From a bacterium (GTDB lineage Bacteria; Lindowbacteria; 2-12-FULL-62-27): a DNA stretch of 43,044 bases. Location of the stretch: NCBI GenBank assembly GCA_016202645.1, contig JACQOF010000119.1:1-43044 (forward strand), in the 5' to 3' direction. The translations under genes and the position numbers were made by a program. This document shows, piece by piece, positions 3,001 through 32,096 of the stretch (the stretch's first letter is position 1; every line of letters begins with the position of its first letter). The notes under the pieces are model-generated. The model made no database searches. It saw only the letters and a list, made by a program, of their open reading frames with translations, and was not told the DNA's origin.

Positions 3001-6000
3001 GTGATCGTGACCGTCTACGTCGGCGACCATGCGACGGGTCTTCTGGTCGATACCGACGTCTTCACGCTGACCGAGGCTGGCGAAACGAGCGGCGTCTTCC
3101 GGAGCGACACGGTGCAGCTCACCGACACGAAGTTCCCATCCGTCAATGACGGGATCATCAGCTGGGGCCGGGCCGACACGATCCACGTCGTCTATGGGGA
3201 TGTCAACAGCGTCGACACGACGAGTGACACGGCGCTGGCGATCGAGATTCCGACAGCCGTCCGGGTCCAGCTCTACGACGACGCCAATTACAGCGACGAC
3301 GTCGACACATTCCTGACGCGGGACGCGATGTACATCCAGGTCCAGGACACGGACGAAAACCTGAATCCCCAGACAAAAGACACGGTGGCCGTGACGATCT
3401 ATGTGGCCAACGCCACCTCCGGCGGCGGCGCGGCCGGCCTGGTCGACGACACCGAGGTTCTGACCCTGACCGAGACCGGCGAGACCACGGGTATTTTCCG
3501 CGTCGGCAATGTCATGCTGACTGACACCGTCGTCCCGACCGTGAACGACGGCATCGTCAGCTGGGGCCGGGACGACACGATGCACGTGGTCTACACCGAC
3601 CCGACCGGCGTCACGACCGATATGGGCTTTGACACGGCTTTGGCGGTTGAAATCCGGAGCGCCTCGACCGTCCAATTTTACGAGAACGCAGCCTTCACCG
3701 ACCCGGTTGACACGTTCAGCGCGCGAACCGACGTTGTCTACATCGAAGTAGCCGACACGGACGAAAACCGGAACCCCCAGGCCATCGAAACGGTGACCGT
3801 CACGATCTGGATCGGCGACGATGCAACGGGCACGGCGCTGGACACCGAGGTCATGATTCTGACCGAGACCGGCGAGACGACCGGCATCTTCCGTAGTTCC
3901 GCGATTGCGATCATCGACACGGAATTCCCGCTGACGTCCCAGAACGGCCGTCTGGCGCTGGGTCTTGGGGACACCCTCCATGTCGCGTACACTGATTCGA
4001 ACGACGCGACGGACGTCTCCGTCGACACCGCCCTCGTCGTGGACGTTCCGTCGGCGAGCGTCGCCGAATTCTACGAGGATGCCGCCTTCCAGGACGCGCC
4101 GGACACCTTCCTGCCGCGAAATGACGTCGTGTATATCCAGATTCACGACACGGACGAGAACCGCAACCCGCAGAGTCGGGATACCGTCACCGTCACGGTC
4201 TTTGTGGGGAACGGCCTGGCGGAGGCCGGCGGGCTGGGTCTGGTCATCGACACCGAAGTCTTCATCCTGACCGAAGCCGGCGAGACCAGCGCCATGTTCC
4301 GGAGCGCCGCGATTCTCCTGGCGGACACGGAATATCCGATCCAGGTCCAGAACGGACGACTGACGGTGGGTCTGGATGACACGATCCACCTGGCCTACAC
4401 CGACTCCAATTTCGCCGCCGACGCCGACTTCGACACCATCCATATTGTCGACGCGCCGGTCGCGAGCGTCACGCAGATATTTGAGGACGCCGGCTACTCG
4501 GACGAGGTTGACACGCTTTCGACGCGCGACGTTCTCTACGCGCAGGTCATGGACACGGACGAGAACCGAAACCCGCAGGCGAAGGACACCGTGCGGGTGA
4601 CCGTTTTCGTGGCTGACCACGCGGCGGGTCTGATCATCGACACGGAAGTCCTCATCCTGACCGAGGGCGGGGAGACGACGGGAACGTTCCGGAGCGGAGA
4701 AGTGGTTGTGACCGACACAACGGTTCCCTCTGTGAACGACGGCGTGGTGAGTTGGGGCCGGAGCGACACGATCCACGTGCGCTACGAGGACGTCAACAGT
4801 CCCGACACCACGAGCGACACGGCCCTGGCCGTCGAGATCGTCACCGTCGCCCAGGTCCTCTTCTATGAGGACGCTCTCATCACCGACCCGGTTGACACTT
4901 ATCTCACGCGGGATGTGATGTACCTGGCTGTTCACGACACGGACGAAAACCTGAACCCGCAGGCGCGCGATACCGTCACCGTGACGATTTACGCCGGCAA
5001 CGGCGTCTCCGAGGGAGTGAATGCCGGGGGTCTTGTCCTCGACACGCAGACCCTGGTCCTGACCGAAAGCGGGGAAACGACGGGCGTCTTTTTGAGCGAC
5101 ACGATCACCCTGACCGACACGGAGTTCCCGGTCGTCGAGAACGGCCGGATCTCCTGGGGCCGCGGGGACACGATGCACGTAGTTTATGTGGACCAGACCG
5201 GCGTGACCGAAAGCGTGTTCGACACGGCCCTGGCGATCGAGATTCCCACCAAGACCTTTGTCCAGTTCTACGAGGATTCGGGGTTCATCGACGACGTCGA
5301 CACCTACCTGACGCGGGACGAAATGTATATCGAAGTCCGGGACACCGACGAGAACCGGAACCCCCAACTGCGCGACACGGTTCTGGTGACCGTCACCGTC
5401 GGAAACGACACGGACGGCCAGGTGATCGACGTTGACACCTTCGTTTTGACCGAGACCTCCGAGACGAGCGGGGTCTTCCGGAGCGCCCGGATCGTTCTGA
5501 CGGACACCGTGACGCCCGTATTCGGCGACGGCATCGTCACATGGGGCGAAAGCGACACGACCCTGGTGCTGTACGTGGACGTGACGGACGGCAGCGACAG
5601 CGCGACCGACTCTGCCCTGGCGATCGTGATCAAAACCTTCGCGACCGTTCAGATCTACGAAAACCGCTTCTTCACGGACGACGTCGACACCCTCTTTACC
5701 CGGGACGTGATGTACGTCGAAGTCGTCGACACGGACGAAAACCGGAATCCCCAGGTGATCGAGACCGTGACCCTCCGCCTCCACGTCGGCAACGCCGGGG
5801 ACGGCCTGGTCATCGACACCGAAATTCTGATCCTGACCGAGGCGGGCGAGACCGCCGGCATTTTCCGCAGCGACACCATCGTGGTCACCGACACGAAGTT
5901 CCCGGTGTCCGGCGACGGCTGGGTGAGCTGGGGCCTTGGGGACACAATTCACCTATCCTACGTCGACGCGAACGATCCGAACGACACGGCCTCGGACACG

Positions 6001-8690
6001 GCCCTGGCCATCGAGATATCGACTTCCGAAACCGTCGCCTTCTTCGCGTTTGCCTCGACCGACACGTATCTTCTGCCGGACACGATCGGCATCGAAGTCG
6101 TGGACCTCGACGCGAACCAGAACCCGCAGATTCGGGACACCGTCATCGTCTACATTTCCAGCTGGAACGCGAACGGGACGAACAAGATATTGATCGACAC
6201 CGAAATGCAGGTGCTGACGGAAGACTCGGAGACCTCCGGCGTGTTCCGGAATTCCCCGGCTGGCCTCCTCCTTTCCGACACGATCATCGCGGCCAGGTTC
6301 GGGAACGGATTCCTGCTGGCGGGCAGGGGGGACACGCTTCTCGTCGAGTACTTCGACATGACCGGAATCGCCATCGGCGCCGAAGCGGAGGACACGGCGT
6401 TTGTCTCGGAGGACTCGAAACCCTCGCGCGTCCGGTTCCTCAAGAGCGGCCTGGACACGGACATCTACGGCACGTCTCACGACAGCGCCCTGATCGAGGT
6501 TGTGGACGAGGACCGGAACATCGAGCCCCAGGACACGGAAGTTCTTCTGGTGCTGGTGCAGGTGGCCCAGACCGGGGACAGCGAGTACGTCCAGCTCACG
6601 CAGGTGGGTGCAGACAGCGAAGTCTGGCGCGCCATGATCTGGATTTCAGACACGCTTCCGCTGACCAAGGGCGACGGCATGCTGTCGGCTGCGAATTTCG
6701 ACACCATCTGGGTGCTCTATCAGGACACGGAATACGCGCCGGATTTCTCAACCGATACCGCGCTCATCCACCGCCGGACGCCGTCGAGCATCCAGTTTTA
6801 CGACAGCACGTACGAATCGACCACCGAGACCTACCTGCCGAAGGATTACGTGAACATCGAAGTGGTCGACACGGACGAAAACGAGAATCCCTTCGGGCGG
6901 GACACGATCACGGTCGTCATCTACGCGTCCGACGTCAGCAGCAAGAACATCCGGGACACCGAGACGATCGTTCTGACGGAGACGACCGACACGAGCGGTA
7001 TTTTCCGGAGCGCCGCCATCACCGGCCAGGACACGTTCTTCACCCGGACGCCCAACAACGGGCTGCTCGAATGGGCGGAGGGCGATTCCCTCCACGTCGT
7101 CTACGTGGACGACGATGACGCGGCGGACGGGAGTTTTGACACCGCCAACGTCAAGGCGCCTGGGCGCGTCGTTTTTGACGACACGATCTATCTCTCCATC
7201 GACACCGTCACGATCACCGTCCGGGACTTTTTCCTGAACGTGAACCCTCTCGTCCAGGAGGTGGTGTCCTGCACGGTGTTTTCGCCGTCCCTCGGCGATA
7301 CCGAGGTCATCTTCCTGACCGAAATTGGCGTGGACAGCGGCATCTTCAGCAACGACCCCGCCCGAGTCCACAACGGTTTGGGCATGTTCCTCCGGATATC
7401 CGAAACGGCGCCGGTCGTGGCCAACGACGGCATCCTGACCGTCCGTCCCGGCGATTCGATCGTCGTCCAGTATTTCTCCTTCAGCGACTCTCTCACGTCC
7501 GGGGACACCGCCCGGATAGACTTCGCGCCGACCGCATCGAAGGTTTTCTTCGACCGCACCAATTACAATTCCAACCGGACCCTGTACCTCACGCTGATCG
7601 ACTCCGACCAGCGCGGCTACTACTTAAATGAGGACACCCTCTATGTCGACGTCTACACCGGCGGCCTCGGCGGCATCCCCGCGGACAGCGAGCGGGTTCT
7701 TCTGACGGAGCTGGCCGACGCGACCGGCTTCTTCTCGGGCATCTTCACGAATCTCGCCACGCTCGGATTCCCTCTCTCAAGCGCCCCCGGCGCGAACCAG
7801 GACGGGGTGCTGAATGTGGGCCTTCTCGATACGATTTTCGTCCAGTGGCGGGACCCCAAGTTTGTGCTGGACGTGTCTCAAGACACCGCCATTTTCCTGC
7901 CGGACAGCAGTGTTGCAAGCGTCCGCCTCGTGCGGTTCCCGGGCGGCCTGGGGGCCGAAGACGCGAAAATATTCGCGGTGGGGGACTCCGTCTTCGTCGA
8001 AGTGACCGACACGGACCAGAACCTCGATCCGAACATACCGGACACCATCACCGTCGTCATCAACAGCAACAAGCTTGACGGGGTCTACCGCGACACGAAG
8101 ACCCTTGTCCTCATCGAAACGGCGCGAAGTTCCTTCCGTTTCGTTTCGCCCGGAGGCCTGATCCTGGAGACGGGCGTGGGCGCAAGCACGATCGAGGATT
8201 CCGTCCTGACCACATTCGGTCTGGACGTGATCCTCGTCTCGTTCCTCGACACCTTCACGAACACGACCGAAATCGACACCGCCGAGGTCGTCCAGCCGTC
8301 TGTCCAGTCGACCGGCCGGTTCACCGACAGCACAAACGTGTCGGTCTTCAGTTATGACGTGTCCGTCCATGACCGGCTGTACCTCGAGATCACGGACACG
8401 AACCAGAACAAGATCCTGGCCCTGTCCGAAACCGTCGCCGTGAATCTCTTCATCCACGGCGCCGGCGGTATTCAGGATTCCGCGGTCGTCCTTTTGACCG
8501 AGATCGACAACAACGACGGCATCTTCCGTATCCCGGCCGGCGTGCTCCTGCGCTATAAGGAGGACACCAATACCAATCCGGACACGTTCAACGACGGCAT
8601 CCTTTCTTTCCGGAACGGCGACACCGTCGAGTTCGTCTACGTCGACCCGGACACGGGCCTCGACACCGTCAGCGATTTCGTCCCGCTCTA
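1..8690 (+). repeat. About 22 tandem coding repeats of 390-405 nt
   Basis: The VDT..TRD landmark occurs at 136, 526, 925, 1318 and 1723, giving periods of 390, 399, 393 and 405 nt. Two subtypes alternate irregularly. Subtype A ends N-GRL..GL.DTL..Y then DTALIVDAPT. Subtype B ends NDGIVSWG..DT.HVVY then DTALAIEIPT. Units after about nt 6,100 drift strongly, and the DxDxN motif decays (for example RDFFLNVNP, TDTNQN). Confidence 0.9.
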
Positions 8691-9807
8691 CAACCTCCAG
8701 AGCGTCATTTACAGTTTCATGGCGTTTGTCGAGCCAGGCAATGGCACGGCGGCCGTGGTTGTGCGGATGCTCAACTCCACGGGAGATTCCATCCCGAACC
8801 TGAACCAGATCATCGCGAGGATCGAGATTCTGCCAAACGGGATCAGCCCCTCGACCTTTGACAAGGACACGGCGTTCTTCTCAAATGGAGACGCGCGGTT
8901 CACCTACAACAGTTCCGCCGACGCCGACTTCAACGCCAAAATCACGATCAGCAGCGTGACCTTCATGCCCTTCATCCGGATCCGCGCCGGCCAGAAGCTG
9001 TGGATTTATTCGAGCGAGCTTTACGATCCGCCGGCGAGTGACACGAGGGTATCGGCGCGCTCGACCGTGATTTTCAGGGACGGCGTCGCGTCCGGCGCCG
9101 AGCGGGTCATTTTGAGCAACTACAACCGCCTGCAGAACATCGATCCGGCAAAGGCCCAGCTTCTCGACGCGGCCAGCGCCGACTTCGTGGCCCAGGTGCC
9201 GGGCCGGACGGCTTTGGGGATCGCCACGGAGAACGGCGTGCGCAGTGACGTTGACATCCGGGTCATCGACCCGGTGACGAACACCGACCGGACGAACTTC
9301 AAGCCGAACACCTTCAGCGTCATCATGCAGTATCCGGACGACGACAACGACGGGATCGTAGACGGCACCGACATCCGGGAAAACAACATGTCGGTCTACT
9401 TCCTGAAGGAATCGATCAACCGCTTCGTGATCGAGCCGACGCAGACCGTGAACGCGACGGCCAATTATGTCGAGGCCATCGTCGACCACCTGACGCTCTT
9501 TGGGCTCTTCGGCGGCCGGATTTCCAACAACGTCGGCGATGCGATCGTGTATCCGAATCCCTTCAAGCCCAACAGCGGTCTGGGTCATACGCAGGTCATC
9601 TTTGACAATATTCCGGAGAACTCGCATCTCCGGATCTACGACATCTCCGGCCAGCAGGTGGACGATTTCTACGTCCCGGTCGGATTCAACCGCGTCGGCT
9701 GGAACGCGACGAACGCCCACGGCCTGAGCGTCGCCAGCGGCGTGTACATTTACGTGATCGAAGGCCCGGGCGGGCGGATGGTCGGGAAGGTTATGGTGGT
9801 CAAATAG
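1..9807 (+). CDS. Giant tandem-repeat surface protein with C-terminal sorting domain (5' partial)
   Basis: The reading frame is open at base 1, so the gene starts upstream; the GTG at 16 is not a credible start because repeat-like sequence (GDT..VVYVD) already precedes it. About 22 repeats of 130-135 residues fill roughly 2,900 residues. Each has a DTDENRNP-type acidic motif, an LTE.GETTG.FRS motif and a GDT.HV.Y.D strand, a pattern expected of beta-sandwich domains that bind calcium. Asp and Thr dominate, Lys is scarce, and I see a single Cys (near nt 7270). The last repeats are degenerate. A non-repeat part (about 8,700-9,530) carries DDDNDGIVDG, a calcium-loop-like motif. The end (YPNPFKP, RIYDISGQ, ASGVYIY, GK..VVK) matches the FlgD-Ig-like/type IX type A sorting domain. 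Known for the family: such domains direct outer-membrane export. Inferred: a very large adhesin or stalk-like surface protein, with the PorV-like gene next door. Confidence 0.9.
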   Translation, partial: GDTAAVVYVDNNDATDVALDTALFTDAPRTATVTFYENQGYTDDVDTYLPRNDAVFIEVVDFDQNISPLIRDTVTVTVWVGDHATGVVIDTEVFVLTEFGETTEVFRSDTIAVVDTEYPIISNNGRITAGLGDTLHVHYADPSSPEDTVYDTALIVDAPTASVTAIYEDANYTNNVDTLLTRDVMYVQVTDVDENRNPQSRDTVWVMLYVANATIGGGAAGLIVDTERLTLTESGETTGVFRQDNIMLTDTKFPGVNDGIVSWGMEDTIHVVYEDVNSVDTTSDTALAIEIKTTGTVQFFEDAAFSDDVDTFVPRNDVVYIEVADTDENRNPQTVETVVVTVWVGNDLTGVTLDTEVFILTELGETTGRFRSAAIALVDTEYPIISQNGRLTLGLDDTLHVAYTDSNEVTSTALDTALIVDAPTVSVPQFYEDAAFQDAVDTFIPRNDVIFVQVQDTDENRNPQSIDTVRATLYVGNGAGEGGGIGLVLDTEVLILTEAGETSAMFRSAAIALIDTEYPIVSQNGRLTVGLDDTLALVYGDVNSADTTQDTALIVDAPTVSVIQLYEDAAHTNQVDTYQTRDVLRIQVTDTDENRNPQATDTIRVTVYVGNGTTEGEAASLVLDTATLILTEAGETSAMFRSGDVMLTDTKVPSVTDGIISWGRGDTLHVVYGDVNSADTVSDTALAVEIPSVASIVIYEDAGYLDETDTLLTRDNLYIQVTDTDENRNPQRADTAAVTLYVANATFGGGAIGLVLDTEILILTEAGETSGVLRSGVVTATDTAVPAVNDGVVTWGLSDTLHVVYTDVTGSAESVFDTALAIEIPTVSAVTLYEDVTFADAVDTFLVRNDVIHIELVDLDENANPQSVDTVQVTLYVGDHYTSLILDTETIVLTEISSASGRFRSDTIAVVDTEFPLVSLNARLAAGLGDTLHVAYVDATNPADSAVDTALFVDAPTPSITRIFEDRFFTDETDTLLTRDVVYLELQDTDENRNPQSRDTVIVTVYVGDHATGLLVDTDVFTLTEAGETSGVFRSDTVQLTDTKFPSVNDGIISWGRADTIHVVYGDVNSVDTTSDTALAIEIPTAVRVQLYDDANYSDDVDTFLTRDAMYIQVQDTDENLNPQTKDTVAVTIYVANATSGGGAAGLVDDTEVLTLTETGETTGIFRVGNVMLTDTVVPTVNDGIVSWGRDDTMHVVYTDPTGVTTDMGFDTALAVEIRSASTVQFYENAAFTDPVDTFSARTDVVYIEVADTDENRNPQAIETVTVTIWIGDDATGTALDTEVMILTETGETTGIFRSSAIAIIDTEFPLTSQNGRLALGLGDTLHVAYTDSNDATDVSVDTALVVDVPSASVAEFYEDAAFQDAPDTFLPRNDVVYIQIHDTDENRNPQSRDTVTVTVFVGNGLAEAGGLGLVIDTEVFILTEAGETSAMFRSAAILLADTEYPIQVQNGRLTVGLDDTIHLAYTDSNFAADADFDTIHIVDAPVASVTQIFEDAGYSDEVDTLSTRDVLYAQVMDTDENRNPQAKDTVRVTVFVADHAAGLIIDTEVLILTEGGETTGTFRSGEVVVTDTTVPSVNDGVVSWGRSDTIHVRYEDVNSPDTTSDTALAVEIVTVAQVLFYEDALITDPVDTYLTRDVMYLAVHDTDENLNPQARDTVTVTIYAGNGVSEGVNAGGLVLDTQTLVLTESGETTGVFLSDTITLTDTEFPVVENGRISWGRGDTMHVVYVDQTGVTESVFDTALAIEIPTKTFVQFYEDSGFIDDVDTYLTRDEMYIEVRDTDENRNPQLRDTVLVTVTVGNDTDGQVIDVDTFVLTETSETSGVFRSARIVLTDTVTPVFGDGIVTWGESDTTLVLYVDVTDGSDSATDSALAIVIKTFATVQIYENRFFTDDVDTLFTRDVMYVEVVDTDENRNPQVIETVTLRLHVGNAGDGLVIDTEILILTEAGETAGIFRSDTIVVTDTKFPVSGDGWVSWGLGDTIHLSYVDANDPNDTASDTALAIEISTSETVAFFAFASTDTYLLPDTIGIEVVDLDANQNPQIRDTVIVYISSWNANGTNKILIDTEMQVLTEDSETSGVFRNSPAGLLLSDTIIAARFGNGFLLAGRGDTLLVEYFDMTGIAIGAEAEDTAFVSEDSKPSRVRFLKSGLDTDIYGTSHDSALIEVVDEDRNIEPQDTEVLLVLVQVAQTGDSEYVQLTQVGADSEVWRAMIWISDTLPLTKGDGMLSAANFDTIWVLYQDTEYAPDFSTDTALIHRRTPSSIQFYDSTYESTTETYLPKDYVNIEVVDTDENENPFGRDTITVVIYASDVSSKNIRDTETIVLTETTDTSGIFRSAAITGQDTFFTRTPNNGLLEWAEGDSLHVVYVDDDDAADGSFDTANVKAPGRVVFDDTIYLSIDTVTITVRDFFLNVNPLVQEVVSCTVFSPSLGDTEVIFLTEIGVDSGIFSNDPARVHNGLGMFLRISETAPVVANDGILTVRPGDSIVVQYFSFSDSLTSGDTARIDFAPTASKVFFDRTNYNSNRTLYLTLIDSDQRGYYLNEDTLYVDVYTGGLGGIPADSERVLLTELADATGFFSGIFTNLATLGFPLSSAPGANQDGVLNVGLLDTIFVQWRDPKFVLDVSQDTAIFLPDSSVASVRLVRFPGGLGAEDAKIFAVGDSVFVEVTDTDQNLDPNIPDTITVVINSNKLDGVYRDTKTLVLIETARSSFRFVSPGGLILETGVGASTIEDSVLTTFGLDVILVSFLDTFTNTTEIDTAEVVQPSVQSTGRFTDSTNVSVFSYDVSVHDRLYLEITDTNQNKILALSETVAVNLFIHGAGGIQDSAVVLLTEIDNNDGIFRIPAGVLLRYKEDTNTNPDTFNDGILSFRNGDTVEFVYVDPDTGLDTVSDFVPLYNLQSVIYSFMAFVEPGNGTAAVVVRMLNSTGDSIPNLNQIIARIEILPNGISPSTFDKDTAFFSNGDARFTYNSSADADFNAKITISSVTFMPFIRIRAGQKLWIYSSELYDPPASDTRVSARSTVIFRDGVASGAERVILSNYNRLQNIDPAKAQLLDAASADFVAQVPGRTALGIATENGVRSDVDIRVIDPVTNTDRTNFKPNTFSVIMQYPDDDNDGIVDGTDIRENNMSVYFLKESINRFVIEPTQTVNATANYVEAIVDHLTLFGLFGGRISNNVGDAIVYPNPFKPNSGLGHTQVIFDNIPENSHLRIYDISGQQVDDFYVPVGFNRVGWNATNAHGLSVASGVYIYVIEGPGGRMVGKVMVVK
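9538..9804 (+). other. C-terminal sorting-type domain of the giant protein
   Basis: About 89 residues with the landmarks YPNPFKP (codons from 9550), RIYDISGQQV, a Trp-x-Ala-x-Asn turn, ASGVYIY and a terminal GKVMVVK. This is the FlgD-Ig-like/type IX type A pattern. It follows directly on a linker after the last beta-rich segment, as expected for a cleavable or retained secretion signal. Calling it type IX is inference, because no core type IX gene other than a PorV-like protein is in the window. Confidence 0.75.
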
Positions 9808-12905: not shown

Positions 12906-12920
12906 AATTCACCTGGGATC

Positions 12921-12992
12921 GTCATTCCCGCGAAAGCGGGAATCCAGAATCTGTCGCGGCTGTTCCTGGATCCCCGCTTTCGCGGGGATGAC
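12921..12992. repeat. dRS3-like palindromic repeat (family 1), covers the start of the TPR gene
   Basis: Two 27-nt arms (12921-12947 and 12966-12992) are imperfect reverse complements (25 of 27 positions). Each arm contains a smaller hairpin of the form ATTCCCGCGAAAGCGGGAAT. Its translation gives the FPRKRES and WIPAFAGMT strings often seen where this repeat is annotated as protein. The right end (GGGGATGAC) contains the ATG at 12988 used by the next gene. Related copies lie at 18434-18535 and 31950-32096. Confidence 0.92.
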
Positions 12993-15900
12993 GACTGCGG
13001 CGCGGCCCTGCCTGGCCTTGCTGCTGTTCTTTTCGCTGATCTCGCATCCCGCGACCGCGGCGGTGTCTGACGACATGCAGTTCGCGGCGGCGCTTTACAA
13101 CGACGGACGCTACCAGGAGGCCCTCGAGGAATTCCGGCGGATTCGGGGGGGCGTTTCCGGCGGGGAATGGGAGGATGACGTTCTTTTTTGGATGTCGGAA
13201 TGCCTGTTTTACCTGAAGGATTACGACGGCGCGCTCGAACTTCACCGCACGTTGATGACCGACCATTCCCTGTTCCCCAAACTGGATGAGGTCTACGTCA
13301 AAGCCATCGCCGCGCATTACAATGCCGGCCGGCATGACCGGGTGATGGAATTGGCGGATCTTCACGCCAGAAAATTTCCCGGAGCCGAGCCCAACGACCA
13401 GGTCTATCTTTTCCGGATCCAGTCGGGCCTCAAACTCAAGGAATTCCGCCAGGTGGAGGATCTTCTGAAAACCTACCAGCGCGCGCGCCCGGGCAGTCCG
13501 TATCTCATGAGCTTGAAATCGATCCTCGCCCGGTCGTATCTCGATGCGCGGCGCCTCGCGGAGGCGCTTCCGTATTTCGAGGAACTCTACCAGTACCAGA
13601 AGGACGTCAATCTTCTGCTCTGGGTCGGAGAGTGCCGGTACCAGACGGGCGCCTTGGCCGGCGCGAAGGAGGCCTTCTCGGGATTTCTGGCGGAACAGCC
13701 CGGAAATGACGTGGCCCGGTTCAAGCTGGGCCTCTGCGAATTCCAGCTCAACCAGTACGCCCTCGCCGCCGAGACCTTCCGGCCCCTCTCCGAAAAGGCC
13801 GGAGGATTTCAGCAGGACGCGCTTTACTTCGTCGCCCAGTCTCTTCTCCATCTCGGCCGGGCCGACGCGGCCAAACAGAGCCTCGAGAATCTGTTGAAGT
13901 TGAGCCCGAAAAAAGAGCTGAGCCAGAGGGCCGTGTCCCAGCTCATATCGCTTGAGTCGAAGGGCAAGGACATCGACCAGATGATCCGGACGTACGAGAA
14001 ATATTCAGCGGAGCCGGGCAAGCAGGAGGAGATCCGTCAGTTCCGGATTTTTTCCGCCTATCAAAAACGCGATTTCACATCGGTCCTGCAATTGATCGGT
14101 TCGCCCGGGGACCGCCGCGAACAGCTGATGCTGGCCGAAAGTCTCTACGCCCTCGGCAAATACGCGGACGCCGCCCGCTCCTACGGAGAGCTTCTCGCGG
14201 CCGCCACTCAAAATTCCGAAAAACGGACGGCCTACGCGGGCCTCGCCTGGACCGCCTACGCCCAGGAGGACTATCGCCGCGCGTTCCCATATTTCCAGTC
14301 CTATCTATCCCTATCGCCGGCATCGGAAGTCACGGCGGAAGACCACCTGGCCCTGGCGCAGAGCGCGCTCGCGTCCGGCAAGGCCTCCGAAGCCATCGCC
14401 GCATACGAGCACGCGAGGAAATCATCCGAAGATCCCAAAGCCATCGCCCGGAATCTCGGGATTCTTTATTTCAACAGCGCGAACTACAAACAGGCGGTGG
14501 ACGTCCTCCAGGGATTCGAGGACGACCAGGTCCTGTCCATTGTCGGGCGTTCCTATCTCTATCTCAAACAGCCCGCCCGCGCCCTGACCTATCTTCGCAA
14601 ATTGAAACATCCGGAACGCTACGCTCTCGAAATCGGCGCCATCCATTACGAGATGGGCCAGTTCGAGGAAGCCAAAACCTATTTCGAGCAGGCCGCCGCG
14701 TCGCCGGGCGCGCCGGGCGGGGTGAACGTCGACGAATTTCTGGGGATCATCGCCTACAATCAGGGAAATTTTGTAGAAGCGGCGGCGCGCCTCCGCAAAG
14801 CCCAGCTGAAGGACCCTAACAATCCGGAAGTCCGTTTTGAGCTGGCCGCGTCGCTGATGCGGATCGAGGGCGCGCCGGAGCGGGAGCTGGTGGACATCCT
14901 GACCCAGCTCGCATCGAGTCCCGGGACACCGGAGTCCTACCGGAGCAAGGCCCGGATGTGGCTGGCTCAGCGGATGGCGTCGACCGACTTGAACAAGGCG
15001 ATGGATGAGGTCCAGCGCATGACGAGCGCATCGGACCGGACGACGACCCTGGAGGCGATGGCGACGCGTTTTTTCTCGGAACAGCGCTACGACACTGCCG
15101 TCAGCCTCTATCAACAGCTCCTGGCATCGCCCGGGCTTTCGCCGGAAAGCCGCCTGCAGGCGCTCTACGGACTCGGATGGTCGTATTACAAGATGGATCA
15201 GAAACCCAAAGCGCGCGAAACCTTCAACCGCCTGATCGCCGCATATCCCAAATCCTCCTACGCCGCCGATGCCGTGGTGCTCCTCGTCGAGGATGCCTAT
15301 GCATCGAAGCGTTATGAGGAGGCGGCGGACCTGGCCGTCCGGCATCTCGGATCCATTTCCAAGAACCAGGACCGCCTGCGATTCCTGGCCGCCGAGGCGC
15401 TCTATGAGCTCAAGAAATACGATCAGGCCCTGACGCACTACGGGGCGTATCTGCCGAAAGCGGACCAGCTCGCGGACTACGTCCGCTACCGGTCCGGCCT
15501 GTCCGCTTATCATCTCCGCCGGTATCAGCAATCCATCTCGAATTTTTCCCTCATCCGGGATACGACCCTTCTGGAACGAAAGCATTACTATCTCGGCATG
15601 TCCTACACCCACGCCGGCCGAAAGGCGGAGGCCGTGAAGGCGTTCGAGACGGTCCTGGATTTCCCGAACGGAGAATTCCGCGACGAAGCCTGGAACAACC
15701 TCGTGCTCCTCATGGAGGCGCTGGGGCAGTGGCAGAAGGCCCTGCGCTACGAGTTCCGGCTGGCGGAGAGCGAATCGGAACTTGAACGGCTGGTTTTCGC
15801 CAAGGCCCTCTATTACACAAACGACGCGCGCGCGGCGCGCTACGCGGAAAAACTGGGCTACATCGCGCGGGATCCGGCAATCGCCTCGGAGGCGCTCCTG

Positions 15901-17905: not shown

Positions 17906-18258
17906 GGGGGCGAAATGGCTTCGACGTGCTTCCTGAGGGCATGGCGGGCGCGCCGGGTCCTGTCGGGACGACCCGTTCAAACCTTCCGACACCATTCACA
18001 AACGCCAACGAACCACTGGCTCTGGCAGCCTAACTAGGCTCCGGGATCAGGATCGGCGGGCTGGACCGTCAGCGCCGCCTGATCCCACTGAACTGACGGG
18101 CTCCTGATTCGGCGGCCTTCGGCCGAATCTTGTAACCTGAAGGCTGGATCGTCGGGGCCGCCTGCGGCCTTTCGACGGTTAAGACCCATACGCGGGATAC
18201 GCGCGTAGATCGCTGTGTCCGGGATTCCCGGACGGGGGTTCGATTCCCCCCGCCTCCA
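17906..18258 (+). ncRNA. ssrA: Transfer-messenger RNA (tmRNA)
   Basis: The 5' end GGGGGCG...GGCTTCGACG is the typical tmRNA start. It pairs with CGCCTCC at 18251-18257, with one G-U pair, to form the 7-bp acceptor stem. The T arm is GGGGG-TTCGATT-CCCCC, followed by discriminator A at 18258. CCA is not encoded and must be added. The internal tag frame ends at TAA 18031-18033 and reads (T)NANEPLALAA, keeping the ALAA protease signal. GGGTC (17955-17959) can pair with GACCC (18183-18187) as part of the long P2 helix, and several further hairpins between fit the pseudoknot region. Function: frees stalled ribosomes with SmpB and tags the product for proteolysis. One-piece, not permuted. Confidence 0.93.
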
Positions 18259-18306
18259 TTCTGCTTCGCCGGAGTACGCTTACGCTTTTGGGGGCTTCGC
18301 AGAATG
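18257..18306 (-). repeat. Family 2 palindromic element, reverse copy at the tmRNA 3' end
   Basis: CATTCTGC ... GCAGAATG termini enclose the core AGTACGCTTACGCTT, which is the reverse complement of the core seen at 24582, 27296 and 28200. The left end overlaps the last two bases of tmRNA (C, A), so the element abuts the RNA gene exactly. Confidence 0.85.
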
Positions 18307-18364
18307 GACCGACGCAAGGACGTATGAGGAATCGAAAAGCGAGGCAACGGAGGCGAAGCAGAAT

Positions 18365-18413
18365 GCCCTCCGTAGCCCCCGGGAGCGTAAGCGTACTCCC
18401 GGCGAAGGAGGGC
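18365..18413 (+). repeat. Family 2 core with different termini
   Basis: The core GTAGCCCCCGGGAGCGTAAG and CGTACTCCCGGCGAA match family 2, but the ends are GCCCTCC/GGAGGGC rather than CATTCTGC/GCAGAATG, with the inverted pairing preserved. Just before it (18349-18365), GGAGGCGAAGCAGAATG resembles the right end of a standard copy, so 18257-18413 may hold the remains of two or three insertions. Confidence 0.75.
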
Positions 18414-18433
18414 GGTCTGTTTTGAAGACTGGT

Positions 18434-18535
18434 AACTATTCAGGTCGTCATGCCCGCGAAAGCGGGCATCCAGACCAATCGCAAAGCAGACTGGATTCCC
18501 GCTTTCGCGGGAATGACGGCGAGAGCTGAATAGTT
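18434..18535. repeat. dRS3-like palindromic repeat (family 1), full-length copy
   Basis: The outer ends AACTATTCAG (18434-18443) and CTGAATAGTT (18526-18535) are exact inverted repeats. Inside are two small hairpins, ATGCCCGCGAAAGCGGGCAT and ATTCCCGCTTTCGCGGGAAT. This defines a 102-bp unit and gives the best view of the intact element. It lies between tmRNA and the amidase gene. Confidence 0.9.
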
Positions 18536-24092: not shown

Positions 24093-24551
24093 ATGAGACT
24101 GTTGGACATTCTTTCGAAAGACTGCATCAAGGCGGATCTGAAGGGCAAGAGCCGCCGGGAAGTCATTCAGGAAATGGTGGATCTGCTGGTCAAGGCCGGC
24201 CGGGTCAAGGACAAGCCGAAGGTGATGGAAGCGGTGATGGAGCGTGAGAAGCTCATGAGCACCGGCATCGGCAACGGGGTTGCCATTCCCCACGCCAAGA
24301 CCAACGCCTGCGACCGGCTCTGCGCGGCGTTCGGCCGGTCGGCCGGCGTGCCGTTTGACGCGCTGGACGAGAAGCCGGTCCGTCTGATTTTTCTCTTGAT
24401 CACCCCGGAGGCCGAGACCGGCCCGCACATCAGCGCCCTGGCGAGAATCTCGCGGCTGCTCAAGCACAAGGTCTTCAAGGACGCTTTGCTCGGCGCCAAG
24501 GACGACAGCGAGATTTACCGCATCATCGAGGAGGAGGAGCGGAGGCGTTGA
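24093..24551 (+). CDS. ptsN: PTS IIA-like nitrogen regulatory protein
   Basis: 152 residues with AGGAGAGG just upstream. EIIA fold; the phosphoryl-accepting His67 lies in GVAIPHAKT, and the family motif PHISALARISRLLK is present. It belongs to the nitrogen-related PTS and signals phosphorylation state rather than moving sugar. No nitrogen-specific EI (PtsP) or NPr is seen here, so the general EI and HPr at 29.9-31.9 kb may phosphorylate it (inference). Confidence 0.94.
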   Translation: MRLLDILSKDCIKADLKGKSRREVIQEMVDLLVKAGRVKDKPKVMEAVMEREKLMSTGIGNGVAIPHAKTNACDRLCAAFGRSAGVPFDALDEKPVRLIFLLITPEAETGPHISALARISRLLKHKVFKDALLGAKDDSEIYRIIEEEERRR

Positions 24552-24581
24552 TGTTCCGCGAAGACGCAGTCCCGGCGGGTC

Positions 24582-24632
24582 CATTCTGCGAAGCCCCCAG
24601 AAGCGTAAGCGCACTCCCGGCGTAGCAGAATG
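24582..24632 (+). repeat. Family 2 palindromic element supplying the hprK start
   Basis: 51 bp, CATTCTGC to GCAGAATG, core AGCGTAAGCGCACTCCCGGC. The terminal ATG (24630-24632) is the hprK start codon. It sits 30 nt after the ptsN stop. This copy has CGTAGCAGA before the ATG, lacking the GGAG found in the 27296 and 28200 copies. Confidence 0.92.
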
Positions 24633-25628
24633 CCCCTTCCCGTTCGGGAATTCTTCAACAACGAAAAAAACCTTCATCTGCAGTTCGTCTCCGGCGATGG
24701 GGGACTTGGCCGCATCATCCGGTCTCCCGAGATCGTCCGGCCCGCCGCGGCATTCGCCGAAGGCGTCTGGCCGGCGGGATTAAAAAAATCCGGCCGGAGG
24801 CCGCCTCCAAAAGTCCGCCGGGCCGTCGAGGGGTCCGTTTGGATTTTCGGATCGTTTGAAATCGGAGCGATTCGGGCAGTGCCCGCCGCCGTCCGGGGGC
24901 GCTTCATGGATTTTTTTCGGACCTGCCGACCCTCAGCCGCCATATTTGTCGAAGGCCAGTCCCCGGCCAAACTGGATGCGTCTCTCGTCCGGCAGACGTC
25001 CATACCCATCTTCACGTCACGCCTGCCCTACACCCGGTTCCTCTCCGCCTTTCACGCCTTTTTGCAGAACCGCCTCGCCCCCCGGACCAACGTCCACGGA
25101 ACCCTCCTCAGCATCTTCAATCACGGCGTCCTTCTTCAGGGCCCGAGCGGCGTCGGCAAATCGGAAATCGCCCTCTCGCTTATCGAACGGGGTCATCAGC
25201 TCGTCGCCGACGACACCGTTCAGATCCGGCTGGAACAAAATCGCGATTTGGTCGGCTCGGCGCCGGAACTGGGCCGCCACCACATGGAAATCCGCGGCAT
25301 CGGCATTCTCAACGTCCGGCAGCTCTTCGGCATCTCGGCCGTCGCGGAGGAACATAACATCCACCTCATCGTCGACCTTCTGTCCCCGTCAGCCATGGGC
25401 CGCCGCGAAGAGAGGCTCGGCGGGTACCACCTGAAGCGAATCCTCGGGGTTGAAGTTCCCCGCGTCGTGGTCCAGGTCCGGACGGGCCGGCATATGGCGG
25501 TGATTATCGAGGCCGCCACGCGGAACCAGCAGCTCAGAAATCTCGGGTATGACGCCGCGCGCTCTTTCCACAAAAGCCTCGACCGACTCCTCGGCGCCCC
25601 GCGCCCAACCGCCAAACCCGGCCGATAA
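24630..25628 (+). CDS. hprK: HPr kinase/phosphorylase
   Basis: 332 residues. N-terminal substrate-related domain (about 1-145) and C-terminal kinase domain with His156 in NVHG, Walker A GPSGVGKS (171-178), VADD, and the family signature MEIRGIGILNVRQLFG (219-234). It phosphorylates a serine of HPr using ATP or PPi and reverses it by phosphorolysis. Its target motif is intact in the HPr encoded at 29861 (Ser51). The start codon is contributed by the repeat at 24582-24632. The N-terminus MPLPVREFFN agrees with family starts, so the true start is probably right. Confidence 0.95.
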   Translation: MPLPVREFFNNEKNLHLQFVSGDGGLGRIIRSPEIVRPAAAFAEGVWPAGLKKSGRRPPPKVRRAVEGSVWIFGSFEIGAIRAVPAAVRGRFMDFFRTCRPSAAIFVEGQSPAKLDASLVRQTSIPIFTSRLPYTRFLSAFHAFLQNRLAPRTNVHGTLLSIFNHGVLLQGPSGVGKSEIALSLIERGHQLVADDTVQIRLEQNRDLVGSAPELGRHHMEIRGIGILNVRQLFGISAVAEEHNIHLIVDLLSPSAMGRREERLGGYHLKRILGVEVPRVVVQVRTGRHMAVIIEAATRNQQLRNLGYDAARSFHKSLDRLLGAPRPTAKPGR

Positions 25629-25635
25629 CGATCCC

Positions 25636-26028
25636 TTGCCGGCCCTCGAAGTCGCCGTCATGTCCTTCGGATACAAGTTCGGCCTGCCCGGCCACGCCGA
25701 CATTGTGCTGGACGTGCGATTTTTGCCGAATCCCTTTTACGTCCCCGCCCTCTCCACGCTCACAGGCCTGGACCCGAATGTCCGGGAGTATGTGGAAAAG
25801 GAGGAGGACACGCGCGTCTTTCTGGAAAAGACGGAGGACTGGCTGACATTTCTGATCCCGAAATACATCGGGGGCGGCAAATCGCTTCTGAATCTCGCCA
25901 TCGGCTGCACCGGCGGCCGGCACCGGTCCGTCTGTGTGGCGGAACGCCTCCGAGAATTTCTGGAACAGCGCTTCATCCGCAAGGACGCCCTTCAAGTCTC
26001 CATCCTCCACAGGGACATCGGTAAATGA
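25636..26028 (+). CDS. RapZ C-terminal-domain protein lacking the kinase half
   Basis: About 130 residues. The pattern SFGYKFGLP.HADIVLDVRFLPNP, LTGLDPNVREYV and IGCTGGRHRSVCVAERL is that of the RapZ C-terminal domain, the part that binds small RNA and glucosamine-6-phosphate in E. coli. The N-terminal P-loop domain (about 150 residues) is absent; hprK occupies the upstream DNA. The start is uncertain: TTG 25636 keeps the first strand (LEVAV) and lies 7 nt after hprK; ATG 25549 would overlap hprK by 80 nt; ATG 25660 would lose the strand. It overlaps the YvcK gene by ATGA. Stand-alone RapZ-C proteins probably exist elsewhere, but I cannot check. Confidence 0.82.
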   Translation: MPALEVAVMSFGYKFGLPGHADIVLDVRFLPNPFYVPALSTLTGLDPNVREYVEKEEDTRVFLEKTEDWLTFLIPKYIGGGKSLLNLAIGCTGGRHRSVCVAERLREFLEQRFIRKDALQVSILHRDIGK

Positions 26029-27347
26029 ATCGCCGGCTCATCGCCGTCCTTCTCCGGCCCGGCCTCTATCTCAAGCGCTGGCTGTTTCTCGGGGGCTTCG
26101 GCGTCTTCATCGCGTTCTGGGGCATGCGCCGGATCCAGGACGAAGTCCACAAATTTCCGGTGAAGTTGAATCTTCAGCTCATGCTCATCATCGTCGGCGC
26201 CGGCCTCTTTCTCTTTGCCGTTTACAAATTCGTCTCATCCGCCCTCAAGTATGCCGGATTCACACGACAGGCCTTTTACCGAAGCCTCATTGACCAGAGG
26301 TACCTGGCCCGGGGCCCGCGGATCGTTGCCATCGGCGGCGGGACCGGTCTGGCCACGATCCTGTCGGGACTCAAGGAAATTACGTCCAACATCACGGCCT
26401 GCGTGACCGTCACGGACGAGGGCGGCAGTTCCGGCAAACTCCGGGACACCTTCGGCATGATTGCTCCCGGCGACATCCGCAACTGCATCGTCGCGCTTTC
26501 CGCCGAACCGGGCCTGCTCGCGGAACTCTTCACCTACAGGTTTCAGGAAGGGGACGGTCTCAAGGGCCACAGCGTCGGCAATCTGCTGATAGCGGCCCTG
26601 ACCCAGATCACCGGAAGTTTTGAAAGCGCCATCCGGGAATCTTCCCGGGTCCTTTCCATCCGCGGGCGCGTCTGCCCCCTCTCTCAAGACGACATCCGCC
26701 TTGCGGCCACCATGGCGGACGGTACGACGCTCCGGGGCGAGGCGGAAATCGGCAGGGCGTCCCAGCCGATTGCGCGGCTTAGAATTGAACCGGAAAATTT
26801 TGCCGTTACGCCCGAAGTTCTCGCCGCGATCCGCGAGGCCGATCTGGTCGTTGTGGGTCCCGGCAGCTTGTACACGAGTATTCTGCCCAACCTCCTGCAT
26901 CCCGAATGCCGGAAAGCTCTTCTGGAAACTCCCGCGCCCGTGGTGTACATTTGTAATGTCATGACCCAGATTGGAGAAACGGCCCGGTTCACCGCCTCAG
27001 ACCATGTCCGCGTCGTCTACGAGCATACCGCGCCGGGGCTGTTCGACTGGATCCTCCTCAACAGCGCCGCGCCCGATCCCGCCGCCATCGAGCGGTACGC
27101 GCTCGAAGGCGCGGTGCCGGTCAAGGCCGACATCGACGCCCTCCGCCATCTCGGCCTCCGGATCATGGCGGGTGATTTCCTCATCGGCGATGTCGAAGTC
27201 GAGACCGCCGAAGGCCGCAAGCACGTGCTCCGGCATGACGCGACCGCGATCGCGCTCAAGCTCCTCCCGCTGTGCCTGCCGGAAGGTTCGCCGTCCATTC
27301 TGCGAAGCCCCCCGAAGCGCAAGCGTACTCCCGGCGGAGCAGAATGA
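26025..27347 (+). CDS. Membrane-anchored YvcK/GlmR (CofD-like) protein
   Basis: 440 residues. Two N-terminal membrane helices (about 18-34, WLFLGGFGVFIAFWG, and 49-70) precede the CofD-like domain (about 95-415): IVAIGGGTGLATILSGLKE, TDEGGSSGKLRDTFGMIAPG, GHSVGNLLIAALTQ, VVGPGSLYTSILPNLL. In Bacillus, YvcK/GlmR controls carbon flow into wall precursors and binds UDP-GlcNAc. RapZ family proteins also sense the amino-sugar pathway, so the pairing makes sense. The last 17 residues (SILRSPPKRKRTPGGAE) are encoded by the family 2 repeat and are not family sequence. The stop overlaps the next ATG inside the repeat end. Confidence 0.9.
   Translation: MNRRLIAVLLRPGLYLKRWLFLGGFGVFIAFWGMRRIQDEVHKFPVKLNLQLMLIIVGAGLFLFAVYKFVSSALKYAGFTRQAFYRSLIDQRYLARGPRIVAIGGGTGLATILSGLKEITSNITACVTVTDEGGSSGKLRDTFGMIAPGDIRNCIVALSAEPGLLAELFTYRFQEGDGLKGHSVGNLLIAALTQITGSFESAIRESSRVLSIRGRVCPLSQDDIRLAATMADGTTLRGEAEIGRASQPIARLRIEPENFAVTPEVLAAIREADLVVVGPGSLYTSILPNLLHPECRKALLETPAPVVYICNVMTQIGETARFTASDHVRVVYEHTAPGLFDWILLNSAAPDPAAIERYALEGAVPVKADIDALRHLGLRIMAGDFLIGDVEVETAEGRKHVLRHDATAIALKLLPLCLPEGSPSILRSPPKRKRTPGGAE
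27296..27346 (+). repeat. Family 2 element: yvcK tail plus EIIA start codon
   Basis: 51 bp, CATTCTGC to GCAGAATG, core AGCGCAAGCGTACTCCCGGC. In the yvcK frame it encodes ILRSPPKRKRTPGGAE and ends at TGA (27345-27347), which overlaps the EIIA start ATG (27344-27346). GGAG lies 4 nt before that ATG, so the element carries a weak ribosome site as well. Confidence 0.93.
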
Positions 27348-27727
27348 AGCGCCGCGTCCTCGTGGTTACCCATGGCCGGGTCGGGGAGGAGCTGGTCGCC
27401 ATTGCGCGCGACCTGCTCGGCGAAGTTAAGGACCTCGACGCCCTCCACATTGATTCCAACGACTCGATGCAGGCCATCTCATCCCGGATGCAGAAGTGGG
27501 CCGCCCGAATCGAGTCCGGCGACCGCGGTCTTGTTCTGACTGACCTGAAAAATTCCAGCGCCACCGTCTCGGCCCTCGCGCTCTCAAAAAAATATCCGCT
27601 CGACTGCGTCTGCGGCGTCAATCTGCCGCTCCTCCTGAAGGCCCTCTCGGCCTCCGTGCCTGGCGTCCCGGAAATCCTGGACGCGGGCCGAAGGGGCATC
27701 GACGCCGTGTCACCCAAATCAAGATGA
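27344..27727 (+). CDS. PTS EIIA, mannose/fructose family
   Basis: 127 residues. His10 in VLVVTHGRVGEEL is the phosphorylation site. The fold pattern (VTDLKNSSATVSAL, VCGVNLPLLLKAL) is that of the ManX-type IIA domain. It takes phosphate from HPr and passes it to the EIIB encoded next (4-nt overlap). The start ATG is the end of the repeat; ATG at this point gives a family-typical N-terminus. It is a stand-alone IIA rather than a IIAB fusion. Confidence 0.93.
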   Translation: MKRRVLVVTHGRVGEELVAIARDLLGEVKDLDALHIDSNDSMQAISSRMQKWAARIESGDRGLVLTDLKNSSATVSALALSKKYPLDCVCGVNLPLLLKALSASVPGVPEILDAGRRGIDAVSPKSR

Positions 27728-28263
27728 TTAGTTTGGTCCGCATCGACGACCGGCTCGTTCACGCCCAGGTGGTTGTCGGGTGGCTCGAATATTTGAGGTG
27801 CCGTCATATCCTCGTCGCCGACGACCGCGTCGCTCAGGATGAGGAACAACTGGACCTGCTTCGGATGGTCATTCCGGAGGACGTCCGGATCGACGCGGTC
27901 GAGGTTGCGTCGATCGTGGATCAATCCGGGGATATCGACGCGGCCGACCGCCCGGTCCTCGTCCTGTTTGCTGATCCGATGAGCCTCCGGGCGGCTGTCG
28001 ACGCCGGATTCAAACCCCGGCTTGTCAATCTCGGCGGCATGCACGACGCGCCGGGGCGCCACTCGTGGATCCATGGACTTTTTGCGTCCGACTCGGAAAT
28101 CGCCGCGATCCGGGACATGATCGGGATGGGCATCGAATTCGAAATCAGATCAGTCCCGGCCGCCCGCCGCCGCGAGGTGGAAGGCGCCCCGGCGGCTTCC
28201 ATTCTGCGTAGCCCCCCGAAGCGCAAGCGCACTCCCGGCGGAGCAGAAGGCGGAGCAGAATGA
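27724..28263 (+). CDS. PTS EIIB, mannose/sorbose family
   Basis: 179 residues. The active His13 lies in RIDDRLVHAQVVVGWLE, the family signature. The body (VADDRVAQDEEQLDLLRM, LVLFADPMSLRAAVDAG, LVNLGGMHDAPGR) fits IIB of the mannose class, which phosphorylates the sugar on the inner face of the IIC-IID channel. The final residues (SILRSPPKRKRTPGGAEGGAE) come from the family 2 repeat and match the YvcK tail; the natural protein probably ended before residue 157. Confidence 0.93.
   Translation: MISLVRIDDRLVHAQVVVGWLEYLRCRHILVADDRVAQDEEQLDLLRMVIPEDVRIDAVEVASIVDQSGDIDAADRPVLVLFADPMSLRAAVDAGFKPRLVNLGGMHDAPGRHSWIHGLFASDSEIAAIRDMIGMGIEFEIRSVPAARRREVEGAPAASILRSPPKRKRTPGGAEGGAE
28200..28262 (+). repeat. 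Family 2 element: EIIB tail plus EIIC-D start, with internal duplication
   Basis: 63 bp. Same ends and core as the 27296 copy, plus one extra 12-bp unit: GGCGGAGCAGAA occurs twice in tandem before TG. In the EIIB frame it gives the shared basic tail plus an extra GGAE. The terminal ATG (28260-28262) starts the EIIC-D gene, and TGA 28261-28263 stops EIIB. Confidence 0.93.
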
Positions 28264-29870
28264 CCCTCCCCGACACGATCCTCTTCTCGGCCCTGGCCGC
28301 GCTCATCTCCATGGATCAGATGGCCTGTTTTCAGATGCTCCTGTCCAGACCCATCCTCACGGCGCTGGTCCTCGGGAGCCTCTTCGGAAATCTCGGCGAC
28401 GCTCTCTTCGTCGGCGTTACCTTCGAGTTTCTCTTTGTCCGGTCTATCTCCCTCAAGGAACGCGCGGCGGCCGATCCCGCCCTCGCCACCGCCGCCACCC
28501 TCGGCGGCATGTGGGGAACTCCACCCATCTCGGGCATGCCGGACGGCTTCGTGCTCGCGCCCTTTGCGGCCGGTCTGGCGCTCCTCGCGTCGTTTCTGTC
28601 CAAGTGGTTTGACGTGAGGCTTCGCACCGTGAACGTCTCCATCTCGCACCGTCTGCACCGCCCCGGATTCATTCAGCTCTCGGCGGCCTCGGCGCTCCTC
28701 GCCAAATCTTTCGGATTTTATCTGCTCGCCATTCTCGCCGTTCAGGGCGCCCTGCCTCACATTTGGCATCTTCTGGGTGACGCCGTATACCCGGCCGGCG
28801 TTTTGTGCTGGGGCACGCTCCTCTCCATCTGCATGGCCTTCTCGGGCACGACACTGCTTCAGAATCGAGTCTCCGCCTTTCTGTGGCTGGGAGCACTGAT
28901 GCTGGGCCTCATCCTCGTGATCCTCCCTCACCGGGTGGGGGCCGGCTTGGAGGTGACGGTGCTCGGCGTCTACGCGGCTTTTTTGACGCTGGTCAGTGTG
29001 GAAATCGCGGTGCGTTGGGGGCGCCGCGGAAATCTGGAGGACAAGGCCTCCGTGATTTCTCCGGCGCGGCCGGAAGGGGTTTCCCCGTGGGATATTTTTT
29101 TCAAGTCTTTTTTCGTCCAGGCGGCATGGAATGACGAGCGCATGCAGAACATCGGCTTTTTGTTTGCCGTGAGGAAAAGTCTCAGCCGAATCTGGCGGGA
29201 GGAACCCCGGCAGTTTGATGAGGCCTGCGCCCGGTCGTCCACGTTCTTCAATACCCACCCCTATTTCTCGCCGGCTCTCATGGGTATGGTGGTCCACATC
29301 GAGGAAAAAATAGCGGAGGGCCTTGCCCTGCCGGAGGATGTCGAGTCCGCCAAGGGCCGGATCGGCCCGCCGTTGAACGCATTGGGCAGTCTCTGGTTCT
29401 GGGACCATTTAAAAGTGCTCTGCTTCCTGATGGCTCTGCCCCTCCTCATGCTCCCGCATCCCCGGGCGGTTGCCTTCGGCGCCATCGCCATGTTCGTGTG
29501 CTTCAACATCTCGCATCTTCGCACCCGCTGGCTCGGGCTTGACCTGGGCCTTCGGTTTGGGGAAGGCATGGTCAAGGACCTGATCGAGCGGTTTCCAAGC
29601 CGGAGACTTGCGGCCTACCGTCGGGCGTCCGCTTTCCTGCTGGGGCTTGCCACTCCCCTCGTGATGTCCAGCCTCTATCTCCACGCGCAGTCCCGGTTTC
29701 CGCCCTTGTCCGATGCGCTTTTTCTGCCCGATCTTTTTCTGTTCCGGATTCTGGCCGGCCTGTCGATTGTCTGCGCGGCCATGATCATCCTCTACTACCG
29801 GTGGCTGTCGGTCTATCAATGCATTGCCGTGGCCGGCGCCGTCCTGGTCGGAGCGGTCCGATGGGCCTAG
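28260..29870 (+). CDS. Fused PTS EIIC-EIID sugar channel, mannose family
   Basis: 536 residues. Residues 1 to about 245 are a IIC domain (hydrophobic helices; MACFQMLLSRPILTALVLGS, LGDALFVGVTFEFLFV). Residues about 275-536 are a IID domain, with FFKSFFVQAAWNDERMQNIG, FFNTHPYFSPALMGMVVHIE and several C-terminal helices. In the usual mannose-class PTS these are two proteins; here one frame joins them through a short linker (RRGNLEDKASVISPARPEG) with no stop. It would import and present a sugar to EIIB. Substrate unknown. HPr overlaps its end by 10 nt. Confidence 0.9.
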   Translation: MTLPDTILFSALAALISMDQMACFQMLLSRPILTALVLGSLFGNLGDALFVGVTFEFLFVRSISLKERAAADPALATAATLGGMWGTPPISGMPDGFVLAPFAAGLALLASFLSKWFDVRLRTVNVSISHRLHRPGFIQLSAASALLAKSFGFYLLAILAVQGALPHIWHLLGDAVYPAGVLCWGTLLSICMAFSGTTLLQNRVSAFLWLGALMLGLILVILPHRVGAGLEVTVLGVYAAFLTLVSVEIAVRWGRRGNLEDKASVISPARPEGVSPWDIFFKSFFVQAAWNDERMQNIGFLFAVRKSLSRIWREEPRQFDEACARSSTFFNTHPYFSPALMGMVVHIEEKIAEGLALPEDVESAKGRIGPPLNALGSLWFWDHLKVLCFLMALPLLMLPHPRAVAFGAIAMFVCFNISHLRTRWLGLDLGLRFGEGMVKDLIERFPSRRLAAYRRASAFLLGLATPLVMSSLYLHAQSRFPPLSDALFLPDLFLFRILAGLSIVCAAMIILYYRWLSVYQCIAVAGAVLVGAVRWA

Positions 29871-31949: not shown

Positions 31950-32096
31950 AACTGTTCAGGTCGTCATGCCCGCCCCGTGTCTGTCATTCCCGCGAAAGCG
32001 GGAATCCAGCGCGGGGTAAACTCCAGCGGGCATCCAGACAATGGCGAAGCAGACTGGATTCCCGCTTTCGCGGGAATGACGGAGAGGGCTGAATAC
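31950..32096. repeat. Composite dRS3-like repeat with another repeat inserted in its hairpin tip
   Basis: The outer unit matches the intact copy at 18434-18535: AACTGTTCAGGTCGTCATGC at the left and GCAGACTGGATTCCCGC to GGCTGAATA at the right. Where the intact copy has the loop GAAA between CATGCCCGC and GCGGGCATCCAG, this one has 52 nt (31974-32025) containing a further ATTCCCGCGAAAGCGGGAAT hairpin flanked by CCCCG/CGGGG. The right end falls 5 nt before the next reading frame. Confidence 0.85.

Follow-up and report, generated by a model that had tools for sequence, protein, structure and literature searches.

A short palindromic repeat in the 43,044-nt contig JACQOF010000119.1 of a Lindowbacteria genome (NCBI assembly GCA_016202645.1) ends in an ATG, and at most copies in the genome the next gene starts with this ATG. 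The whole contig is called the window in the following. Judged from sequence comparison, the element is probably a mobile hairpin, similar to repetitive extragenic palindromic (REP) sequences and miniature inverted-repeat transposable elements (MITEs), that inserts at (TC)ATG(A) and brings an ATG of its own as right terminus. The genome, a fragmented assembly of 2.9 Mb with 82 % completeness, was studied by targeted searches and in a sample of 843 kb. A whole-genome search with the core pattern yielded 11 copies, the reversed control none. A covariance model identified 22 matches at E<0.01 in the whole genome, 18 with arms of the CATTCTGC/GCAGAATG type (A) and four with B arms. The right-end ATG was the start codon, as inferred from homology, of the following gene in 15 of the 18 A copies: gatB, hprK, EIIA, EIIC-D, pyrG, nuoJ, nuoK, nuoH, glgA, gspF, rplQ, atpG and the genes for a zinc-ribbon/CBS protein, a CNNM-type membrane protein and an NAD-dependent epimerase (the names CNNM, NuoH and NuoK were assigned by sequence inspection). 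These host genes, all internal to operons, share no clear function. The other three A copies were the first unit of an A-B-A tandem before gspF, a copy at a CobS-like junction and one at the transfer-messenger RNA (tmRNA) gene; 17 of the 18 overlapped a gene-start junction.

Anatomy of the palindrome and precision at gene starts

The element has a length of 46-49 nt, or 60-63 nt where an end duplication is present. Each copy folds into an outer stem (CATTCTGC/GCAGAATG) that includes the ATG; a 3x3 GNA/GNA internal loop separates it from an inner GCC/GGC stem, which is closed by a small loop. The A arms read TTCTGC/GCAGAA, and the GC-rich core has a potential GNRA-type loop. GTAG (in about half of the copies) or GAAG lies between the left outer arm and the inner stem. 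The terminal inverted repeats, arms of 6-10 bp, covary: among ten copies 97.7 % of the cells were paired and four pairs were altered on both sides, e.g., TTCTGC/GCAGAA versus TCCTGC/GCAGGA, and none of 500 shuffles matched the arm covariation score. Outside this set, the atpG copy has the arms TTCTAC/GTAGAA. B arms (CCCTCC/GGAGGG) enclose the same kind of core; B units form inverted pairs with A at nuoH, gspF and pyrG, and also occur near the tmRNA gene. The right border is ATG in 17 of the 18 A-arm copies, and one decayed copy has ATT.

The initial annotation, based on three copies in the window, had considered a base-precise landing on start codons unlikely by chance, and the genome-wide count of right ends bears this out: most copies were located at starts, and homology gave no sign of real starts elsewhere. 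In family models, residue 1 of GatB, GlgA and AtpG aligned to profile position 1 or 2, PyrG residue 5 to position 3, GspF residue 5 to position 1 and L17 residue 7 to position 2. The chance baseline was derived from the 843 kb sample, in which 714 genes were called by a simple codon-usage method, and was compared with 15 of 17 copies, the first unit of the tandem being excluded. Start codons represented 21 % of the ATGs outside genes, so that random insertion into such ATGs has a probability of 7e-9. They accounted for 28 % of the non-coding ATGA sites (P = 4e-7) and for 54 % of the non-coding TCATGA sites (P = 0.003); the latter figure is soft, because a 443 kb run with an overlap bonus in the start choice gave a share of 80 %. 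A control repeat family (GTCATTCCCGCGAAAGCGGGAATCC, GTCATTCCCGCGAAAGCGGGAATCCAG) was present with 55 copies in the 843 kb, 52 of them entirely intergenic by these calls, and none of the 55 copies in this sample ended at a start (nearest distance 13 nt). Copies of the control repeat, often in inverted pairs, were also seen in the window at 12919-12994, 18446-18518 and 31975-32088; another is situated about 100 nt from a Y1 transposase gene (L155), a candidate REPtron.

Several imperfect or displaced copies were observed. The copy at the CobS-like junction (L039, G000:C118:9787-9837) ends in ATT instead of ATG, and its hairpin is predicted to be translated in frame as the N-terminus MTPILRSPQERKRTPGEAE of the CobS-like protein, whose gene apparently starts at an upstream TTG (TTGA overlap). 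A B-arm copy (L051, G000:C21:18005-18055) lies in frame within a coding gene that by inspection resembles sulfite/nitrite reductase, and encodes PLRSPQERERTPGEGG. Two right-half remnants without left arm, GGCGAAGCAGAATGAC (L076) and GGCAAAGCAGAATGAG (L088), are located at plausible gene starts and are possibly decayed copies.

Reading frames and the copies in the window

At each of the 15 start-site copies, a reading frame stays open across the hairpin and terminates between 7 nt before and 1 nt after the new A. The upstream gene itself crosses at the gatB, EIIA, EIIC, nuoK, CNNM and epimerase junctions, while at nuoJ, nuoH, gspF, rplQ, the CBS gene, glgA, atpG and hprK a mini-ORF (open reading frame) begins at or beside the upstream stop; the pyrG copy is at a contig edge. 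The additions are thus a tail of 16-20 residues on the upstream protein or a mini-ORF of 15-36 codons. Twelve of the 15 crossing frames end at the TGA of ATGA. Frame 2 is entered at hprK, the epimerase gene and atpG, and a TAG shortly before the ATG (at -7, -7 and -4, respectively) occurs at these three alone, a coincidence with a chance of 1 in 455. The TAG of the atpG copy is compensated in the left arm. Five cases of definite read-through end at ATGA (EIIA, EIIC, gatB, CNNM, nuoK). Their upstream frame requires an insert length divisible by three, i.e., 48, 60 or 63 nt, which places the element bounds at TC|[CATTCTGC...GCAGA]ATGA; insert lengths at other copies include 46, 47 and 49 nt. In-frame tails are predicted for YvcK, EIIB, GatA, NuoJ and YbeY, besides the CobS-like N-terminus and the B copy in the coding gene, and the preferred frame encodes the peptide ILRSPxKRKRTPGGAE. 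An element open in all frames was considered and rejected, as frame 0 of many copies contains stops. The conservation of a crossing frame at 15 of 15 starts points to a preserved translational coupling. The mean unpaired probability predicted for the AUG was 0.27 at element starts versus 0.47 at other starts (P = 0.004); in the relatives described below it was 0.58.

Three forward copies in the window end in GCAGAATG, and their last ATG opens hprK (24630), EIIA-man (27344) and EIIC-D (28260), as initially annotated. The description of these starts as family-typical is supported by family models and orthologues, and a GGAG 4 nt before the ATG is indeed present in two of the three copies. Copy 1 (24582..24632) has the CATTCTGC/GCAGAATG arms with the GNA/GNA internal loop and provides the start codon of hprK for HPr kinase/phosphorylase (24630..25628, forward). 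Residue 5 of HprK aligns to profile position 3 of NCBIfam TIGR00679, and the orthologous hprK starts, which lack the element, read ATGGGACTTCCC in G001 and ATGACTCTCGCG in G002, the two relatives introduced below. A forward mini-ORF (24551..24625) crosses copy 1; its ATG overlaps the stop of the upstream EIIA-2 gene (TGATG), and its TAG stop is located 7 nt before the hprK ATG. Copy 2 (27296..27346) encodes the tail ILRSPPKRKRTPGGAE of YvcK (CofD/YvcK family; 26025..27347, forward), a gene that runs through the copy and terminates at the TGA within ATGA, formed by copy 2 and the next base. The last ATG of copy 2 starts the gene for the mannose-family EIIA of the phosphotransferase system (PTS; 27344..27727, forward). 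Copy 3 (28200..28262), with a 12-nt tandem duplication at the right end, likewise encodes the tail of the sorbose/mannose-family PTS EIIB (27724..28263, forward), whose TGA stop is completed by the next base, and starts the PTS EIIC-EIID fusion (28260..29870, forward). The empty site of EIIC-D in G002 reads CTCGTC|ATGAATATC. The extension of yvcK and EIIB through the element, to a TGA overlapping the new ATG, goes beyond the initial annotation, and so do two further copies.

Copy 4 (18257..18306, reverse strand) has 10-bp arms (TCCATTCTGC/GCAGAATGGA), and its right end is joined to the tmRNA gene (17906-18258) at the 3' end of the latter; this gene was the sole match in an Rfam search. TCCA of the tmRNA 3' end also forms the outer tip of the hairpin arm. 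Copy 4 alone among the copies lies outside protein starts and tandems. Copy 5 (18364..18414, forward) carries B arms (CCCTCC/GGAGGG) and is preceded by a remnant of an A-type right end, ending GGCGAAGCAGAATG (18365). Apart from these elements, the window has an ORF of 3263 residues (16-9807), built from numerous repeats that are each about 130 residues long (DTDENRNPQ motif); the product is probably adhesin-like or a surface protein.

Empty sites, spread and rival explanations

Two relatives, G001 and G002, belong to the same family and to other genera; their orthologues have 52-82 % identity over most stretches. In both, most orthologous starts are at the same position and the element is absent, and most of these junctions carry a 4-nt ATGA stop/start overlap. 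At nuoH the empty site GACCG|ATGAACGAA (also given as GACCG|ATGAACGAACTT) corresponds to GACCGATGA[B-A]ATGAATGAG in the present genome, at gspF TTTT|ATGAGTCCATTT corresponds to ATTATGA[A-B-A]ATGAGTCCATTC. Further empty sites are GATCC|ATGAAAATC (glgA), GAAGC|ATGAAGCAT (rplQ), GTGTC|ATGATC (CBS protein) and CGTC|ATGAAT (EIIC). ATGA is present on both flanks of the insert at nuoH and gspF and ATG is repeated at rplQ, while most copies, of the form TC|CATTCTGC, have no duplication of ATG(A). A left ATG that always represents the duplicated original start was rejected: it fits nuoH, gspF and rplQ, but by comparison with the relatives the left ATG at atpG and hprK is equally explicable as ancestral spacer.

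Near-identical cores recur at unrelated genes of the present genome. The element pattern was absent from 97 other genomes, and the searched genome contigs and viral contigs held no copies apart from two single matches (Atopobiaceae, L099; viral, L100), which have no arms and were taken as chance. The covariance model found one match of the B-arm type in each relative. These B-like palindromes (L180, G001:C30:156115-156165; L179, G002:C128:8112-8162) have TCCTCC or CCCTCC arms; the one in G001 ends in GGAGGAAAGGAGTGATC directly before a gene and may supply a Shine-Dalgarno motif. Y1 transposases flanked by the element were not detected, neither among the ten of this genome at 82 % completeness nor among 14 in the two relatives. 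The stretches around the model matches in this incomplete genome contained no transposase-bearing copy that could represent an autonomous parent transposon sharing the ends of the element.

For a mobile hairpin, the following course may be proposed. The element would be inserted at ATG-containing sites, mostly TC|ATGA, by a transposase or recombinase provided in trans. An insertion exactly at an operon-internal start codon would restore the start through the terminal ATG of the element. As the linking frame runs open through the body, an upstream protein tail or a mini-ORF would arise and termination would be passed to the new ATG, so that the upstream stop becomes linked to the restored start. 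Stop/start junctions of coupled genes would tolerate such insertions, while insertions elsewhere in genes would be lost to selection. Given the deeper predicted burial of the AUG compared with other starts, initiation would rely on a ribosome arriving from upstream, and the element would keep or even tighten the coupling. Most likely, target preference and selection against harmful insertions together account for most of the precision. Of the two accounts in the initial annotation, insertion targeted at ATG draws support from the empty sites in two relatives and the ATG right border of 17 of 18 copies. The other, a ready-made initiation site, agrees with the GGAG of some copies, but only some possess it and the AUG is predicted to be more buried; a supply of Shine-Dalgarno motifs as main function was rejected, as GGAG is not conserved among the copies. 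Several observations weigh against the mobile hairpin in this form. No mobilising enzyme was found among the Y1 transposases of the genome and its relatives, the left border is ambiguous with a duplicated ATG(A) at nuoH, gspF and rplQ and none at most TC|CATTCTGC copies, and the relatives are of other genera, hence the empty sites are not within-species polymorphisms. With TCATGA as target a small shortfall still remains (P = 0.003), therefore target preference with purifying selection may not suffice.

A domesticated riboregulator, i.e., an AUG-sequestering hairpin, thermometer or protein-binding site spread to a regulon and placed at starts by positive selection, would explain the predicted burial of the AUG, the covarying arms, the crossing frame ending at ATG that each start-site copy retains, and the prevalence of essential and metabolic genes (nuo, atp, rplQ, gatB, pyrG). 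We regard it as unlikely, for the same junctions lack copies in two members of the family, the host genes have no clear function in common, and the tmRNA copy, the CobS-like fusion and the in-frame B copy in a coding gene fit a selfish element. Target specificity without any selection, with an extended start motif (Shine-Dalgarno or stop/start overlap plus ATGA) as transposase target, could account for an occupancy of starts above the expectation from ATG, ATGA or TCATGA and for the TC preceding the arm in eight solo copies. However, several pre-insertion sites (the relatives of gspF, glgA and the CBS protein gene) have no Shine-Dalgarno motif, the tmRNA copy occupies an ATG that is no start, and no enzyme was identified in this genome, which makes this explanation rather improbable. 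That the ATGs are not true starts and the coincidence stems from choosing ATGs at repeat ends is hardly credible: the starts were inferred from homology, but family models and orthologues place them at these ATGs or no more than a few residues away, the genome-wide counts disagree, and no result of the analysis favours misannotation. A more specialised form of the mobile hairpin is tentatively suggested, in which machinery recognising operon stop/start overlaps acts on a portable coupling module (TGA/ATG frame, AUG-covering hairpin), together a mobile element dedicated to start codons.

Known repeat families and significance

The element shares with REPs (GTAG/CGTC-tagged, associated with REP-associated tyrosine transposases (RAYTs) and also forming REPINs or bacterial interspersed mosaic elements (BIMEs); PMC3733652, PMC8266576) the nature of a short, dispersed, imperfect and potentially transcribed palindrome, and its inverted B-A pairs recall BIMEs. 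REPs are multicopy palindromes of 20-50 nt; with 46-49 nt and 22 model matches, the present element is at the upper size and of low copy number. The left internal loop plus the next base reads GTAG or GAAG, but this tag sits inside the outer arms. REPs are mostly intergenic, whereas here the end coincides base-precisely with the start codon in 15 of 18 copies, and no adjacent RAYT was found. Extragenic location and a cognate RAYT were both tested and neither was found, thus the element is not classed as a REP. REPs with GTAG ends frequently contribute the TAG stop of neighbouring ORFs, and some REPs lie within ORFs (Di Nocera et al. 2013, PMC3733652). Rickettsia palindromic elements of about 150 bp are situated in frame in ORFs and translated with the host genes (review PMC10969869). 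The present palindrome is also in frame with host genes, with a preferred frame and predicted translation, but is set apart by its size of about 48 nt and its location at gene junctions, where it adds C-terminal tails or mini-ORFs plus the next start codon. As MITEs, it is non-autonomous and has terminal inverted repeats, several copies and composite forms; it is shorter than classical MITEs (70-300 bp; PMC3733652) and has no consistent target duplication. Speculatively, hairpin ends and a fixed target on one side, as in the single-strand Y1 transposition of IS200/IS605 insertion sequences, would yield a base-precise insertion of fixed orientation. In the literature searched, no repeat was described as a source of start codons.

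Short palindromic repeats are usually regarded as extragenic clutter. Here, the start codons of core genes (NADH dehydrogenase, ATP synthase, ribosomal protein L17, CTP synthase, GatB) are replaced base-precisely with the product unaltered, a route for selfish DNA to persist inside dense operons. The C-terminal tails and mini-ORFs predicted at the copies can be tested, and the copies are natural constructs for the study of termination and re-initiation with a start codon in a hairpin. If the target recognition is intrinsic, the enzyme involved would place DNA precisely on start codons. Should the element prove to be specialised on start codons, it would spread through essential operons without gene breakage, adding translational coupling each time.

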